From Guyanagaster necrorhizus (Eukaryota > Basidiomycota > Agaricomycetes > Agaricales > Physalacriaceae), in contig NW_025064888.1 in the NCBI RefSeq assembly GCF_019112545.1, positions 1,536,671 to 1,600,670 of the forward strand: 64,000 nt of DNA, written 5' to 3'. Under the pieces are notes generated by a model. That model saw only the letters and a list, made by a program, of their open reading frames with translations, had not been told where the DNA came from and searched no databases. The position numbers and the translations under genes are program-made. Below are positions 1 to 64,000 of this stretch, piece after piece. Each line of letters starts with the position of its first letter. The stretch's first letter is position 1.

Positions 1-2699
1 AGCAAGAGTATTTTAGAGCATGTCAATTTTCTCTATCTGCTAAAATGTCTTTTGATCAAGACCATAGGGTAATTGGAAAGACTAAACTTGATTAATATAA
101 AAAAGAAGAATATTAAAAAGAAGAAACATATTATATATTTCAGATAAACTGCAGGATTCAATATGAATATTTTAGCAAAGTGCAACATGTATATTTTATG
201 ATTGTAAAAGTTTGATTGCTTTGAGATCTAAGCTTATTCAACAACTGCTAATCTAAATTCTGTTACTTATATTTATATGTAGTCCAATTGGACTCTGCCT
301 TTTCAACTTTAGAACATCCTTCTTATAAAGAGCTTCAAGTGCTGAAAATAATTTTAAAGACTTGATATTATCTCAATGAGGATGACTGAGTGAATCTAAT
401 ATAAAAATCTTGCTTTTTAAGAACAATCATTAAAATATTTCAATTGAGAGAAATAGAATCACTTACTTGGTGTGTTTTTTGTTGGAACTATGCTTTAGTA
501 ATATTCTATTGTGAGAATTTGATACAATAACAAGATACCAATAGAAGCTATATGTTTATAAATATAATATAGGATATGACTTTAAAAAAGAGAATAATCC
601 TTATAAATCAGCACAATCAGATACTTATTTGTAAAGATGTTGATCTTGGATATTCAGCATTCAACATCTGCATAGTTTTTTTTTAAGCATAATTAATGCT
701 CATTGATGAGCCTTTAAGCTCTGTATACTCTGAAATCATAGGCCTTAATAATAAATTTTGATTTTAGCCTTTAAGCAGGCTTTCAGTAAACTAATTATTA
801 CAAGTTCAACTCATATACTTTTATCACAAACTTTTCATGATATATAAACTTTCTCTTCAATAGCTATGCATCACAGGCACAGCCAGGCACAATGATATCT
901 GATCATATAGGATATACATCATTCTCATTATACATGCAGTATCTTAATACAGTCCATAAGGCCTACTGCAATATGTATGCAAAGCTTGCTGTAGATGCTT
1001 AAGCTACTCACAGCTAGCACATAGAAGGCTAATATATAGTATAGAACTAATCATGCATTTGGTTAGAGATTTATAAGGAATATTAGAAGGATTATCATAC
1101 TATTAGCTAGTAAACTTTTAAATATACTACACTTAGTACAATCCTCACAGCTTTGAAGGCTTTGCATTACAAATAGTTCACTATGCTCACTAAGCTTAAT
1201 ACTGCAGTTATCAAGGCTATTTAATGTAGCATACTTAGTATTAGTAAATGAGTATTATAAGTAGAATACTATACAACATATGAGAGAGAGATCACATAGA
1301 AAAAAACTAAGTTACAGCCTACAGCTAAGATATGCCAAAACTACTCAACACCTATACTAAACTATACACTTATACAACATCCCTCTAATAGAACTAATTA
1401 TACAGATCATCTACAGATCAACACTCTCTGACTGAGAATGCTATAGTATCTCAATAGTCTTACAAACATGATATACTAGTGAACTTTTAATTTGCATGAA
1501 AGGATTTATTATTCTTATATATCATTTTCATATCTCTTAGACTGATCTAAAGACTTCAAAGGGTAACTATAAATAAGACTTCATGCCTTTAAGCTTCTAA
1601 CACTATAGCTTATTATTCTTATACTAAGAAATGACACTAAAAGTATACCACTGAGACTACATGTAGGATTTCAACAATAAAAGTCTATGCTGCATATAGG
1701 TTGCACTGCTCAGTATCCAGATATCTATGTGATATTTCTGCTATAGAAAAGTTCATATACATACTTTGAGTCTCTGTACACACTTTAGAGGTTTATAACA
1801 TCTATAGCAAGCAATTGTTACACCTCTTGGAGATTATAATCATCTTATAGATATATAACTAGACTCATCTGAATCAGCCTTCAGATTCTGTGCTTTGATT
1901 TCACTAATTGTTATAGGTTTTGTGTTTCTGCCTGCAAAAAGTCTAACAACTTTCTGAATCATCATTATTGAACACATATTCAAAAGTCTAATCTTTGTAA
2001 CCTTGAAAACTAAAATAATTGAAAACATAAACTTTATCTATCAGTGTGACATTCATTCTCTGGAGGTTTTCATGTGTAAGTCTGCAAATATTGAGTGATA
2101 AAGAAATATAGTCAAAGAAAAAAATATACATTAGTCTCACTGATATTAAATTATCATTCAGAAAGCATATACCATGTAATTGATCCAAGTTGCTTTAGCT
2201 TCTGTCAGTGCCACCTTTTATCTACCAGAGATAGATGAGTATTCTGAAAACAGTAGTCAGTGAATATCAGAGAAGCTTAGAAGAAAATACAGACAAATCA
2301 GATGATAAATCTTCAAATTATAGTAGAGTAGAGTATTTGAAATATTTTTTTTGTTATTGAAACAAAGAGAATATGAATATATGTCTATGCAGCTGCACTG
2401 AAACAAACATCAGATAGAATGTGCTGTCTGTAATTTTCTCACTTGGTTCAAGAATCTTATAAATTAGAGATAAAGAATAAATTCTTACAAATTGGCATAT
2501 TAATAAAAATGAATGAAGGACTTAGTCCAGCCAGACAAAGCTATATTCATTGTTTTGTTTTTTCACTAGTCATATATTCAAGCTCAATGCTGGACTAAGA
2601 AATCATATCATCTGATATTGTTAAATTCAAGCATCACATAAGTGCAAACTCATAATAAACTGATATTGTATCATGTTCATACAATCACACCAGAGTCCA

Positions 2700-2820
2700 C
2701 TTTAGTATCTGACTTAGTGTGAAGACCAAGACATTCACAGGTTGCTCAAAGGTGAATGGTATAGAATAAACTTTAGCTCAAAGCTGAGTTCACTATAGTG
2801 AGAGCTACACTACTTATATA
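2700..2820 (+). repeat. Decayed LTR-like fragment, related to 55590-55740
   Basis: About 100 bases align by eye with 55640-55740. Both have a ggTTGCTC-like start, then an agaataaactttag core, a tgag block, an agtgagaact/agtgagagct block and an acttA(a/t)ata end. The agaataaactttag core followed by a ctactta motif looks like the 3' part of a Copia-type LTR. No coding partner survives next to it. The assignment to Copia is a guess; the homology between the two copies is what is seen. Confidence 0.4.
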
Positions 2821-3974
2821 TGTCTGGGTCTAAGATAAATATAGTCTGTCCTATTGTAGTTGTCTGTGAGTTAGAACTAAAGAGTGCAGTACAAATGCAT
2901 AAAACAATGAAATATGAGCATTATTGAGGCATCTATTATAAGTTGCAGCACAATAGCACAAGTCATTCAATACAGACATGGTTACCAGTCTGGCCAGATA
3001 GATAAAGAGAGTGCCTGAGATTAGATAGGCACTCTAATAAGATTAGATAAGCAGAAAAATTGTAACAGATATTGTGATGACATTGCAGATGAATACCATA
3101 TAACAAAAGATGATATATCTGATTCTATTATGAAATTCTTTTCTGTTTAACAAACTGAACTAACAGTTCAAGTTTCCACAGATCTGAGCACAGAAAAGAT
3201 GAATAATGAATCATTCAGAGAGTATCCTAAAGTGAGTGATCTTCTGGCTTCATATAGAATCTATCTTTAAATGTTTTCAGATCCAATATGCCAGATATAA
3301 CTATCTTTTCTTGTTGAAGTATGTTGAAAGATTGAATATATAGGATTTCATGATATTCTGATCAAACATATTTATTTTTAATATTATCACAAAATTAAAT
3401 AAAACAATTTACTGGAAAAACATTAAAAATCAAATACAAATAAATATCAAAGCTTATATCACTCACCCAATAGGCTAAAATGTGTACTTGACATCATTGC
3501 AGAGTTTTAATAAAAGGTCTATTGTGAAACCAAAGAAAAGATTGTAGAAAATAGTAAAGAAGATTACTGGAGTCTGAAACTAGCTGCAATTATTTGATAT
3601 ATACTGCAGTGATATTCACTAATTCCTAATATTATTGCTTAATTGTCAGGACTAGCAAACTGAATTGCAAAAGTAAAGCTATGTGGGCAACAAAGAGAGT
3701 TTGTAGCTATGATTGCATTATGAATAGTCTCACTGTTAGTTTCCTTTCATTTGAACTACATTATTATAACAGAACATCAAAAGAAGTGATAAAATAATCT
3801 TGTTCAGCTCTCTGTCTATGGGGATTCAATTCCTACATATACAAGTCAGTGATAGTTTAAAATATTGAATGTACAGGCAAGTTTCTGATGGATTTCAGTC
3901 TCTCTCATCTACCTTTCATCCAGCAAAGTATATTATGATGTTAATTACATGCTTAAAAGTGTGTATCATAAATT

Positions 3975-4020
3975 TTCAGTGATTTTATAATGATTTGATA
4001 TTGCAGTGAATTTTTTTGAG
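3975..4020 (+). repeat. Short direct repeat, copy 1
   Basis: 46 bases that recur at 4601-4646 with two or three mismatches, 626 bases downstream, inside the CpG-free block. The flanking sequences are not similar, so this is a remnant or a small insertion footprint rather than part of a tandem array. Confidence 0.6.
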
Positions 4021-60463: not shown

Positions 60464-60483
60464 TAGGGTAGTCAGGGTTAGGA
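60464..60483 (+). repeat. Telomere-like tract at the element/chromosome junction
   Basis: The + strand reads tagggtagtcagggttagga, i.e. degenerate TTAGGG repeats at the exact change from CpG-poor to CpG-rich DNA. On the element's sense strand this is a CCTAACCCT terminus, which could pair with a telomeric G-overhang. Confidence 0.75.
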
Positions 60484-60485
60484 TG

Positions 60486-60520
60486 GTGTCCTCCCTTCGG
60501 CGAAGCCGTTGGGAGGACAC
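60486..60520 (-). other. Conserved 35-nt hairpin, copy 1
   Basis: A 10-bp outer stem (GTGTCCTCCC/GGGAGGACAC), a TT/TT internal loop, then CGGC/GCCG closed by GAA. Copy 2 at 63820-63854 has the same length and loop with two compensated stem changes. Confidence 0.8.
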
Positions 60521-60543
60521 AATAATCATGATGCAACTACTCA

Positions 60544-60560
60544 CCAAGTGGTAAACTTGG
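60544..60560 (-). other. Hairpin abutting a GTGAGT donor-like site, copy 1
   Basis: Stem CCAAG/CTTGG with a 7-nt loop. On the minus strand the last G of the stem is the first base of GTGAGT (60544-60539). Geometry is identical to copy 2 although the stem sequence differs. Confidence 0.65.
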
Positions 60561-60585
60561 GGATTGCTTGATTGCTTGGTAAAGT

Positions 60586-60663
60586 GAAGCTGGGTCCAAC
60601 AGAGGGATGGGGAAACCATCTCTCACCCTGTTTCGCTTTTATAGCTCTTCAGGGACCTGCTTC
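60586..60663 (-). ncRNA. Type I hammerhead ribozyme, copy 1
   Basis: On the minus strand: helix I GAAGC-A-GGTCC, core CTGAAGA (CUGANGA), helix II GCT-ATAAA-AGC, core GAAA, helix III with CAG/CTG and GATGG/CCATC around a 5-nt loop, then GUU (16.2-17) and the second strand of helix I GGACC-CA-GCTTC. All invariant hammerhead residues are present. Self-cleavage is predicted between 60598 and 60597. Hammerheads are known in Penelope-like terminal repeats. Confidence 0.92.
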
Positions 60664-60989
60664 ATAAGCCGATGACTCGGCTGAGAGGATTTGGCGGTCC
60701 AATCAGCTTGGCTTTATCAGCAATCACGCAATCCGCAGTGAGTATTGCATCACAACGGTTAGTAATTAAGGTACGGAATCGTACCATTTATTATTCATAC
60801 TTGCTTACTCTGCGGGTTCTATTTAACCGGTTAGTCATACCATCTGACTAATTTATCCGTTTTGCCGTCGGCTACTAAGTTCACCGGGCCGTACTAAGTT
60901 AAGACCGAGGTCACCTGACCGGCTTTTCGGGCCGAGTTCCTAGCCGGCTTTTCGCCGGTCCGGTCGGCCGACCTTTATACGTGACGGAC

Positions 60990-61034
60990 GGTTAGGTCCG
61001 GGTTAAGGTTCGGGTTCCGGTTAGGGTTTCGGGC
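60990..61034 (+). repeat. Degenerate telomere-like repeats inside the element
   Basis: The + strand has ggttaggt, gggttaa, ggttcggg, ggttccgg and ttagggttt in succession, variants of TTAGGG. Suggests a former element/telomere junction or a repeat domain of the element's RNA. Confidence 0.6.
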
Positions 61035-61102
61035 TGAGTAAGCATTATTAGTATAATTCATTAATGCGTGACTGCGACAACGATTAAGTTGCCAGGACGT
61101 AC

Positions 61103-61118
61103 TTAGGGTTAGGGTTAG
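61103..61118 (+). repeat. Internal TTAGGG tract
   Basis: Two and two-thirds perfect TTAGGG units (ttagggttagggttag) on the + strand, 251 bases downstream of the RT stop. It could be a junction between two elements added successively, making 60464-61102 a separate 5'-truncated copy. Confidence 0.85.
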
Positions 61119-61368
61119 TCCGCTGGCAGACCACCTGCCATCCATACCGAGCTTGGCATGTTTATGTACGCCCCTAATAAAGGAGTCTTTTTCAATTTTA
61201 TATAGCGAACGAGTTGTTTGCATGGCTTACAATGAGAATATCGTCGACTTGATTTAACTATTACCCCAGGCGGATTTTTATAATAGTCCAACTACTCGCG
61301 ACCGACCGGCAAAATACCTGGTTTTACTTTATCTGTCCACGAGTCTGCCTCCCTAGAGAGGAGTCGCA

Positions 61369-63588
61369 TCATGATGTTCCCATAACCATATCTATGAAGA
61401 CCTGCGGATCAACGCTACTTCGGTCTGAATCGTCGCCAGCAGCAGACGAATCCGAAGAAGGTACGTTTTGATCCGAGGATACTGAGTCTTCATCAAACTT
61501 TCGGAGAACGATCTTTTTCCAAAGACCGGTCATATCGAACAAATTTTTAGTACGTTTCTTACTAACAATAGTTCGTCGGTTTAAAATACCAATTGTTCTG
61601 ATATCCAGTATGCCGCGAGGGCCTACTGGGGTTTCGACAGCCATCAAAAGACGGTTGTCTACCTCCGCCGGTGGTATGTCTCCATACATCACCGACATAT
61701 TATTCGGCGCAGTGCCGAGGCGCTCGATTCTTTCGATTCGGTCGCGCCAGGTATTTAATATCGTATCTCCGAGCTCTCTCGCTTTGAAGTAATTCCACGC
61801 TGTATTATATGTGGACTTAAGAACCAACACTCCGTCGTCATCTCCCCTCTGGGCCGCTACGCCCAATCGGTTGCTCCAACGTGTGGTTATATTATCTTTC
61901 GTCCATTTATACACATAATCGGCAGGATAGCCACGTGCGATGTATAAAGCATTTAAACTTTTAATAGCATCTTTGTAGTGCTCATGAGTGCTACTTAACG
62001 TTGCTAGCCTGGACATCTCACCTATAAATGTACCGCGTTTAACGTCTAGCGGATGGTGTGATATCCATGGAATACGTTCTTGATGGGAGCGAGCTTTCCG
62101 GTATGGCATGTGTTGAATCGCGTTATTAGCGTCGAAATAAATCATCATGTCCAGGAATTCGTGATGTGAGGGACTCGCTTCCCATTCTATCTTGCAGCCG
62201 TCAAAGCTAACAGTCTGTACTAATGCTAACGCCTCAGATTCGGAGTTAGCATAGACTATTGCTAGACAGTCGTCGATGTATCTTCCATAGAAAGGCACAG
62301 CGGCGGTTAATTCTAATTGTCGCTCGAAATACCAACCATAGAGGTTGGCAAGATCGGGCGAGTCGGCGACACCCATTGCTAGGCCGTTCCGTTGTTCAAA
62401 GAATAGGTCATTGTACTGCAAGACCAGATTTTTGTTACCAGTCGAAAGACATTTGAGAAAAATCATTTCACGAATAAGTTTTTCCTCGTCGTTTTCAGTA
62501 CCGTAATATTCTCCATACAAGTGAGTAATCACATCGAGACATTTCTGGAGAGGTATATTAGGGTAAAAAGCGACAACGTCTCCCGTAACGATAAACATTT
62601 TACGGGATCGATCTGTAACTATCTGACTCAATTTTTTCGCCAAGTCTTTGGATCCATGTAATATGGTTGGCGCCGATTTGACAATCGGTTTGAGAATTTT
62701 TGACACATATTTTGCTGCCGGATTTTGGATGGCGGAGTGGCACGGTATAATTGGCCGCATTTTTACGGGTTCCTTATGAATTTTGGGTATCCCGTAGAAT
62801 GTCGGCACCACATGTTGGGATCCTGGCGAAGTGATCTTCGACCGGAAATATTTCCCTAATTGTAATCCGTTAGGAAGATGGCGTTCAGCAAGGCCAGCAA
62901 TTTCTTCCATGTCTGTGCACTGTTTATCGCATATCGCATTAATCATTAACAAATGTAACGGTGTGTAATTAGCACTATCGTTTACGATATCGAGCGACTT
63001 CTCTATAATCCACTGGCACGTGGATACAGCTATTCCCAGGTTCTTGTCGGTGTTCGTAACCAAGTAATTGTTACGATCCAAGAAGGACTTGATCTGGCTC
63101 GGTTTTGGAGCTAGCGCCGATTTAATGGGCTCCTCCGTTTCTGCAGGGATATTGGCGATCGTGTCAAACACGAAGCGCTCGCCCGCTGCAATGCCAGCTT
63201 CAATATACTGTGGCGACCTCGGGGCTCTAACATTACGTTGTTGAGGGATATCGAAGTCTGGATCATAAAGATCGTCGTCTGAGTTGTTCTTCGTAAAGCT
63301 AAAGTAAAGCCTCCATCGGAGACGTTCTTTGAAGTCTTCCCACGCGGACTTAATTAAGTCTGAGTTGCGGGGGGTATAAAACATGTATTTCATACCTACG
63401 GAGAGCTGAAGCTCTATTTCTTTAGGAATGGTTACTCCCGGTGACTTATGTACGCTGTTACGAAACTGAGAAGCCGTAATAATATTTACGGGCGTATGTA
63501 ATAGTACAAAATTAATAGCTACCGGAAGTGGAACTGTAAGCAACCAGTCGGGGTAAGTGGCGGGTATGTCATACCTGAATAAGTCCAT
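61369..63588 (-). CDS. Penelope-like reverse transcriptase, 739 aa, no GIY-YIG domain
   Basis: RNA-dependent DNA polymerase related to telomerase RT. Signature blocks: TNTDKNLGIAV (about residues 178-188, the PLE DKG motif), YGIPKIHKEPVKMRPIIP (265-282), motif A GDVVAFYPNIP (336-346, first catalytic Asp337), motif B QRNGLAMGVADSP (399-411), and motif C YIDD (437-440). Then HEFLDMMIYF, and HPLDVKRGTFIGEMSRLA with ARGYP of the thumb. The C-terminus continues about 150 residues past the thumb, ends in an acidic Ser/Asp stretch, and has no GIY-YIG or other endonuclease motif. ATG at 63588 is the first in this frame; the frame is open for 71 more codons upstream without ATG up to a TTAG at 63801. 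The gene is uninterrupted, so the copy may be active. Confidence 0.95.
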   Translation of the reverse strand: MDLFRYDIPATYPDWLLTVPLPVAINFVLLHTPVNIITASQFRNSVHKSPGVTIPKEIELQLSVGMKYMFYTPRNSDLIKSAWEDFKERLRWRLYFSFTKNNSDDDLYDPDFDIPQQRNVRAPRSPQYIEAGIAAGERFVFDTIANIPAETEEPIKSALAPKPSQIKSFLDRNNYLVTNTDKNLGIAVSTCQWIIEKSLDIVNDSANYTPLHLLMINAICDKQCTDMEEIAGLAERHLPNGLQLGKYFRSKITSPGSQHVVPTFYGIPKIHKEPVKMRPIIPCHSAIQNPAAKYVSKILKPIVKSAPTILHGSKDLAKKLSQIVTDRSRKMFIVTGDVVAFYPNIPLQKCLDVITHLYGEYYGTENDEEKLIREMIFLKCLSTGNKNLVLQYNDLFFEQRNGLAMGVADSPDLANLYGWYFERQLELTAAVPFYGRYIDDCLAIVYANSESEALALVQTVSFDGCKIEWEASPSHHEFLDMMIYFDANNAIQHMPYRKARSHQERIPWISHHPLDVKRGTFIGEMSRLATLSSTHEHYKDAIKSLNALYIARGYPADYVYKWTKDNITTRWSNRLGVAAQRGDDDGVLVLKSTYNTAWNYFKARELGDTILNTWRDRIERIERLGTAPNNMSVMYGDIPPAEVDNRLLMAVETPVGPRGILDIRTIGILNRRTIVSKKRTKNLFDMTGLWKKIVLRKFDEDSVSSDQNVPSSDSSAAGDDSDRSSVDPQVFIDMVMGTS

Positions 63589-63787
63589 AGAGCGGCGGCA
63601 GCCTGCCTCTACGCCTTCCCCTTCCCTTTTCCTTTCGCCGCTGGAGTTTTCTTCGGCTTGCCAGACCCCCCGCCTTTTGTTGCGTCCGGTACTCGTCGTC
63701 CGCCGCGGGGTATATACTTGGGCGGAGGAGGATGCTCCGACCCGGTCTTGACTTTCTTGCTCGTTGAACTGCTCGATTTCTTCCCAC
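63569..63787 (-). CDS. Small Arg/Lys-rich upstream frame overlapping the RT start
   Basis: 72 codons (MGRNRAVQRARKSRPGR...) with very high Arg/Lys content, starting 14 nt after the predicted splice acceptor and overlapping the RT start by 20 nt in another frame. Could be a nucleic-acid-binding ORF1, a regulatory upstream ORF, or chance. The RT frame through the same DNA is also rich in Arg/Lys/Glu, so composition alone is weak evidence. Confidence 0.35.
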   Translation of the reverse strand: MGRNRAVQRARKSRPGRSILLRPSIYPAADDEYRTQQKAGGLASRRKLQRRKEKGRGRRRGRLPPLYGLIQV

Positions 63788-63803
63788 CCTGTACCTGTTT
63801 CTA

Positions 63804-63817
63804 AGTTAGGGTTAGGA
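63804..63817 (+). repeat. TTAGGG tract in terminal repeat copy 2
   Basis: The + strand reads agttagggttagga directly before the 35-nt hairpin, as in copy 1. Confidence 0.8.
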
Positions 63818-63819
63818 CG

Positions 63820-63854
63820 GTGTACCCCCTTCGGCGAAGCCGTTGGGGGTACAC
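63820..63854 (-). other. Conserved 35-nt hairpin, copy 2
   Basis: Stem GTGTACCCCC/GGGGGTACAC with the same inner CGGC-GAA-GCCG. Relative to copy 1, C-G became A-T and T-A became C-G, both compensated. Confidence 0.8.
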
Positions 63855-63876
63855 AGTATGAGTAAAGAAATACTCA

Positions 63877-63893
63877 CCTCAAAAGTGTTGAGG
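63877..63893 (-). other. Hairpin abutting the splice donor, copy 2
   Basis: Stem CCTCAA/TTGAGG with a 5-nt loop; on the minus strand the stem's last G is the first base of the GTGAGT donor at 63877. Confidence 0.65.
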
Positions 63894-63916
63894 TTTGCGG
63901 TATTGCTTGTTAAAGC

Positions 63917-63994
63917 GAATCAAGGTCCAACAGAGGGATGGGGTCACCATCTCTCACCCTGTTTCGCTTTTATAGCTCTTCAGGGACCTGATTC
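63917..63994 (-). ncRNA. Type I hammerhead ribozyme, copy 2
   Basis: Same architecture and length (78 nt) as copy 1. Helix I is GAATC-A-GGTCC with GGACC-TT-GATTC, core CTGAAGA...GAAA, helix II GCT/AGC, helix III closed by a TGACC loop, GUU before the cleavage point (63929/63928). The helix I change G-C to T-A relative to copy 1 is compensated. Confidence 0.92.
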
Positions 63995-64000
63995 ATAAGC

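Follow-up and report, generated by a model that had tools for sequence, protein, structure and literature searches.

The last 64 kb of contig C9 of the mushroom Guyanagaster necrorhizus (G000:C9:1536671-1600670; hereafter the window), which end exactly at the contig end at 1,600,670, carry two head-to-tail copies of a Penelope-like element (PLE) on the minus strand. We are confident that this is a telomere-attached, endonuclease-deficient PLE of the Athena and Coprina kind, the first copy truncated at its 5' end and the second interrupted where the contig stops, and that the pair probably lies at a chromosome end. The kind of element is known and is well confirmed here; the unexpected part is a template-bearing RNA domain in its 3' untranslated region (UTR). 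A fixed RNA 3' end, a short telomeric joint, an outward orientation, a variable 5' truncation and the stacking of copies can all be read directly from the sequence.

Copy 1, together with its telomeric joint, occupies 60470-63803. Where it meets the chromosome there is an 8-nt perfect telomeric joint, AGGGTTAG (60474-60481, plus strand), with degenerate letters immediately to the left. From the stop codon of the reverse transcriptase (RT) to the RNA 3' end, the modules on the minus strand are the 141-nt domain, a C-rich stretch of degenerate telomere-like units (60985-61030), a probable hammerhead (60593-60657), and a terminal hairpin (60483-60523) adjoining the RNA 3' end, CCUAACCC. Copy 2 is represented by its 3' end (63804-64000, minus strand), which runs off the contig end and holds a joint, GTTAGGGTTAG, at 63805-63815, a terminal hairpin at 63817-63857 and a probable hammerhead at 63923-63989. 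The two form direct repeats, with 60470-60669 pairing with 63804-64000 at a spacing of 3,331-3,334 nt. The original prediction, made from the letters of this DNA, described two partial terminal repeats; the repeats are real and the right one is indeed cut by the contig end, but the left one is the element's whole 3' region of about 900 nt. Its orientation of the TTAGGG strand and its RNA end, CCTAACCCT, are as stated.

The 739-codon RT frame that had been predicted is present and open (61369-63588, minus strand), of the PLE and telomerase type and without a GIY-YIG domain. Pfam returned RVT_1 at 29.4 bits (cut-off 29.6) and one weak DUF; it detected no GIY-YIG in the window frame, the 5' part of copy 1 being missing, nor in seven homologues scanned out of 120 listed, five of which are 1,101-1,266 amino acids long. 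At least 461 related proteins were found by search. Among the 120 listed, the best named relatives are from Armillaria ostoyae and Lentinula edodes, with A. ostoyae first at 68% identity. Many of the 120 are 1,100-1,250 amino acids long, and those that were read have about 350 additional N-terminal residues. PLE-like motifs run along the RT alignment. When the modelled protein was compared with known folds, telomerases were the best matches (ranks 1-11 by VIA-align), including over the region N-terminal to the RT domain. Across seven copies (21 pairs) the ratio of nonsynonymous to synonymous substitution (dN/dS) was 0.06-0.32 at dS of 0.13-0.82; judged by these ratios, the RT is under purifying selection and the copies are old lineages that have retained the enzyme.

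An endonuclease-less PLE thus stands as predicted, but the claim that the unit is complete and intact does not. Upstream of the RT ATG, in another frame, is the K/S/P-rich C-terminal tail of an upstream open reading frame (ORF; 63609-63803, minus strand, with its stop at 63609-63611), which is cut by the truncation at about 63803. A complete unit is therefore ruled out, most of the upstream ORF being missing. The N-terminal part of that ORF was unmatched in the assembly, where no match starts before residue 317 of P0002.

The rest of the family points the same way. Searching the genome with the RT gave seven main copies plus remnants on two contigs, and searching with the 3' region gave 17 rows, from which we counted 14 element ends on 11 contigs; these counts are lower bounds, with a 100-bp hammerhead-bearing fragment 38.8 kb inside its contig (C80:38764) and two 41-bp inverted matches to the hairpin itself left out. 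Orientation is identical at all 14 ends and is the one expected if synthesis of complementary DNA (cDNA) starts from a G-rich 3' end, and 13 of the 14 lie 0.09-7.9 kb from a contig end (on C80, the outermost 4.2 kb are N). Left flanks differ at every end, with perfect telomeric joints of 6, 7, 7, 8, 9, 9, 11, 11, 14, 16, 16, 16, 22 and 23 nt. The 5' truncation point varies between copies while the RNA 3' end is fixed, and stacking on an older copy is seen on C9 and C80. The genome holds 26 exact matches to TTAGGGTTAGGGTTAG, of which 13 lie in the telomere of contig C46 and 13 in or at the element; allowing one mismatch adds seven (two in the element, five elsewhere), and a reversed control pattern gave six matches. 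The contig ends bearing the element are probably telomeres. The predicted attachment of a PLE to telomeres is upheld by the positions and orientation of these ends, by the fold comparison and by the selection on the RT.

The remnants, at C34:433133-433631 and C41:314269-314758, are of a different PLE-like RT, with 43-60% identity and internal stops, and lie in two stretches that are 93-95% alike. These stretches contain no TTAGGGTTAGGG tract and gave no match to our model of the RNA modules.

Several observations weigh against this interpretation. The NCBI contig that carries a host protein of the window is 1,604,657 long, about 4 kb more than the 1,600,670 of C9, and contig ends in general may be assembly breaks at repeats. 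One of the 14 element ends sits 24.1 kb inside its contig. Five truncated copies (on C15, C23, C77, C35 and C76) run into a different repeat, here called X, and not into telomere. Plain telomere was found at a single contig end, that of C46, where it extends for at least 90 nt, far beyond the 6-23 nt of the joints. On the protein side, the RT model has a mean predicted local distance difference test (pLDDT) score of 69.7, and its Foldseek template-modelling (TM) scores are low, at about 0.3. Finally, the host has a TERT RNA-binding domain, so that host telomerase could have made the joints. For the proposal that cDNA is primed on an open telomeric 3' end, the uniform orientation is favorable, but the joints do not demonstrate a long open telomere. 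Their length falls short of what would reveal a mature open one, and they could be telomere remnants, products of healing by host telomerase, or copies of the telomeric letters of the element's own RNA.

Healing by the host is the strongest of the alternatives, and a serious possibility while falling short of an even chance. Host telomerase would extend a broken end by one to four repeats, giving a nascent tract that the element would join, its own telomeric letters serving only for pairing. The fungus has its own TERT gene, as indicated by exons of the telomerase RNA-binding domain at G000:C3:1171780-1172137 (PF12009, 65.8 and 32.5 bits); this gene, the plain telomere at C46 and the variable size of the joints all fit such a route. 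However, the 6-9 nt joints (6 of 14) are explicable by the element's own 3' end alone, and where one copy is joined to another, on C9 and C80, the joints are just 11 and 9 nt.

For the telomere-attached PLE, we propose the following route. An exposed chromosomal DNA 3' end would pair with CCUAACCC, held out at the RNA 3' end by the terminal hairpin, and the telomerase-like RT would extend this DNA end along the RNA, usually stopping early. Such an early stop would leave a new end to which the next copy could attach. Where copies stand in tandem, the hammerhead may trim their transcripts. The internal template domain probably works as RNA, either by tethering the RNA or the RT to telomeric DNA or, least certainly, by templating TTAGGG addition.

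Of the predicted hairpins, the terminal ones of the two repeats fold with z of -6.58 and -5.78. For the predicted hammerhead in each repeat, a strict descriptor matched exactly twice in the 64 kb, at the two minus-strand positions given above, and not at all in 60 first-order Markov windows; on the other side, Rfam gave no hammerhead match in the element, and the minimum-energy fold at the two sites is a rival three-way junction (z of -0.92 and -1.98). Conservation, here and below, is among diverged copies within one genome. Over hammerhead and terminal hairpin, aligned in 13 of the 14 copies, 98.4% of cells are paired and the score is 0.135, against at most 0.050 for slid versions of the structure. 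Seven pairs change on both sides and stay paired (two-sided pairs): five in the terminal hairpin and one each in stems I and III of the hammerhead, the core of which is invariant in 13 of 13 aligned copies. Shuffles matched the further pair types in 496 of 500 cases. We regard this as a probable type-I hammerhead with a conserved core and stems I, II and III; in copy 1 its outer stem I spans 60585-60664 and self-cleavage is predicted at 60598/60597. The tip of the terminal hairpin (60498-60508 and its counterparts) occurs in both orientations, the loop letters on C77 and C76 being inverted relative to the others.

The 141-nt domain (61061-61201, minus strand) is reached by seven of the 14 copies. 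It consists of P1 (61174-61166 with 61102-61094), P2 (61160-61155 with 61148-61143), the hairpin P3 (61140-61124), a telomerase-template-like tract, CUAACCCUAACCCUAA (61103-61118), and P4 (61093-61076). The telomeric tract had been predicted and is there; the conserved fold around it goes beyond that prediction. The tract is identical in six of the seven copies that reach it, with one mismatch in the seventh, and holds the at least 1.5 telomeric repeats expected of a telomerase RNA template. In a plain MAFFT alignment of the seven copies, P1, P3 and P4 have 97.3% of cells paired, five two-sided pairs and a score of 0.247, compared with at most 0.084 for slid versions. None of 500 shuffles equalled the score or the percentage paired, 21 reached five two-sided pairs and 234 matched the further pair types; related sequences can score above such shuffles. 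With P0 and P2 added, in an alignment that was fitted to the structure, 97.1% is paired, with nine two-sided pairs and a score of 0.300 (slid versions at most 0.075; further pair types matched by 139 of 500 shuffles). The 50-nt template piece by itself folds no better than shuffles (z of +0.43) and a 121-nt stretch gives z of -1.88, so the case for the domain rests on covariation, not on stability.

Other features of the domain are shared among the copies. Ranked by conservation, the top two 40-nt blocks in the 3' noncoding region are the tract with its neighboring hairpin and the hammerhead core, and a 17-nt window on the tract ranks 14th of 863. The hairpin 5' of the template is present in every copy; P3 is invariant, and a rival hairpin over the first template bases fits almost equally well, also lacking two-sided changes. 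Used as a pattern, hairpin plus tract occurs six times in the genome, always within the element, and the control gave none. TATATAAA (61197-61204, minus strand) lies 30 nt ahead of P1; TATATAA precedes P1 by 26-30 nt in all seven copies, each of which also has a second motif, TATAAA, some 160 nt ahead of the tract. The predicted hammerhead cut falls 485-523 nt past the template start. The nested fold gave no sign of a pseudoknot, CR4/5 or Sm site, no search having been aimed at them, and Rfam gave no telomerase RNA match in the element. The domain is reminiscent of a telomerase-RNA template with a possible boundary stem, and we infer its function from sequence comparison. Our literature search, which did not reach the key papers, turned up no description of a PLE with a covarying template domain. 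None of the 14 junctions shows an insertion that begins at the internal tract, which rules out this analogue of internal initiation; the tract must therefore have another role, or none. That a covarying fold encloses it speaks for a role as RNA.

The internal tract might instead work as a DNA site for telomere or promoter proteins, the surrounding RNA fold being incidental. Double-stranded TTAGGGTTAGGGTTAG could bind telomere proteins, and the tract itself cannot show covariation. We hold this to be somewhat unlikely: pairs of P1, P2 and P4 change on both sides yet stay paired, at the levels given above.

A further reading, which we regard as doubtful and advance tentatively, takes the RNA role to its limit. 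The retroelement would supply the protein and the RNA of a telomerase alike, with a TERT-like RT and a telomerase-RNA-like domain of its 3' UTR that bears a bounded template and is released as an RNA subunit of about 0.55 kb, TATA-started and hammerhead-ended. Using the internal tract, bounded by the 5' hairpin, the RT would extend broken or eroded ends with TTAGGG, and the short tract so made would be where the element attaches. The covarying closing helix and P4 around the tract, the conservation of tract and hairpin, the position of TATATAA and of the predicted cut, and the fold matches to telomerases are consistent with it. Three joints are also exactly 16 nt, the size of the internal tract, and two of these have the same preceding AC, a coincidence seen post hoc. 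On the other hand, the joint start phases are spread across all six registers, the boundary hairpin is invariant and has a near-equal rival, further TATAAA motifs are conserved as well, the template piece is no more stable than its shuffles, and a pseudoknot, CR4/5 and Sm site, for which no search was made, did not come to light.

That the element is an ordinary dispersed repeat and the contig ends mere assembly breaks is very improbable: six contigs (C9, C23, C70, C85, C87 and C93) do stop within the element, but the same orientation at 14 of 14 ends has a chance of about 1 in 8,000, calculated by hand, if copies are independent, and all seven main RT copies have their 3' region on the same contig, none being found as an isolated outer flank.

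Repeat X, into which five PLE copies run, was matched 45 times in the genome, and at 12 distinct places (14 rows) one end of it is fixed while the flanks differ. The breakpoints of those five copies differ, and the joined sequence common to all is TTATAGGTAGGC or similar; on C85 and C77 a PLE is in turn joined to a truncated X. The fixed end of X is TATAGGTAGGC, and in every row inspected the two letters before it are CT or TT. Most of the inspected copies have a AACCCTAAGTTAGGGTT palindrome close to this end, and a 73-bp minisatellite follows. Copies lie at L015:6427-7668, L018:6799-10000, L019:4757-7693, L031:1822-3322 and L034:1691-3191. X and the PLE both behave like end-attached sequences, and X appears from these junctions to be a second chromosome-end-attached repeat. 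Decayed SNF2 and Helicase_C frames (L061:2737-4972; C23, about 835.7-838.0 kb) lie some 6 kb outward of X, and a genome search for DEAD helicases was uninformative on X. At the other end of the window, positions 1-4000 have a GC fraction of 0.30, against 0.43-0.50 across most of it, and no frame of at least 110 amino acids starts before 5000.

The telomere-attached PLE offers a clear mushroom case of repeated, self-stacking additions at what are probably chromosome ends. Since PLEs and telomerase have a common ancestry, one question is how a retroelement RT came to have a template RNA of its own. An element whose RNA holds a conserved, structured telomeric template next to a TERT-like RT brings that question within reach of direct tests in vitro. 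If the domain does template TTAGGG addition, the element could first lay down a short TTAGGG tract at a broken end and then insert there, and it would stand between PLEs and telomerase as a surviving intermediate or as a convergent return.

Athena and Coprina are reportedly telomere-associated, endonuclease-deficient PLEs, as described by Gladyshev and Arkhipova in 2007. They reportedly share with the present element an RT lacking GIY-YIG, copies that are truncated at the 5' end and point toward the telomere, telomeric repeats both at and near the 3' end, and basidiomycete hosts; a possible difference is that here the internal tract lies inside a closed, covarying domain and has a hairpin immediately on its 5' side.

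In the report on bdelloid rotifer terminons (PMC6431247), their 3' ends carry a hammerhead and reverse-complement telomeric repeats, they form head-to-tail arrays, and short telomeric stretches occur at truncations, all of which have counterparts here. Unlike in that account, a separate hairpin adjoins the telomeric letters in our element, the hammerhead lies about 0.1 kb upstream, and neither giant size nor accessory ORFs are shown. The Anolis Poseidon-type PLE (PMC11167929) likewise has tandem copies, a hammerhead and reverse transcription from a fixed RNA site; however, it possesses a GIY-YIG endonuclease and makes its cuts in AT-rich DNA, whereas the start here is a telomeric 3' end. Basidiomycete telomerase RNA, represented by Malassezia (PMC12506658), resembles our domain in a template of at least 1.5 repeats and perhaps in a stem adjoining the template on its 5' side. 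In comparison with that RNA, the domain has no identified pseudoknot, CR4/5 or Sm site, none having been specifically sought, and it is encoded beside the element's own RT.
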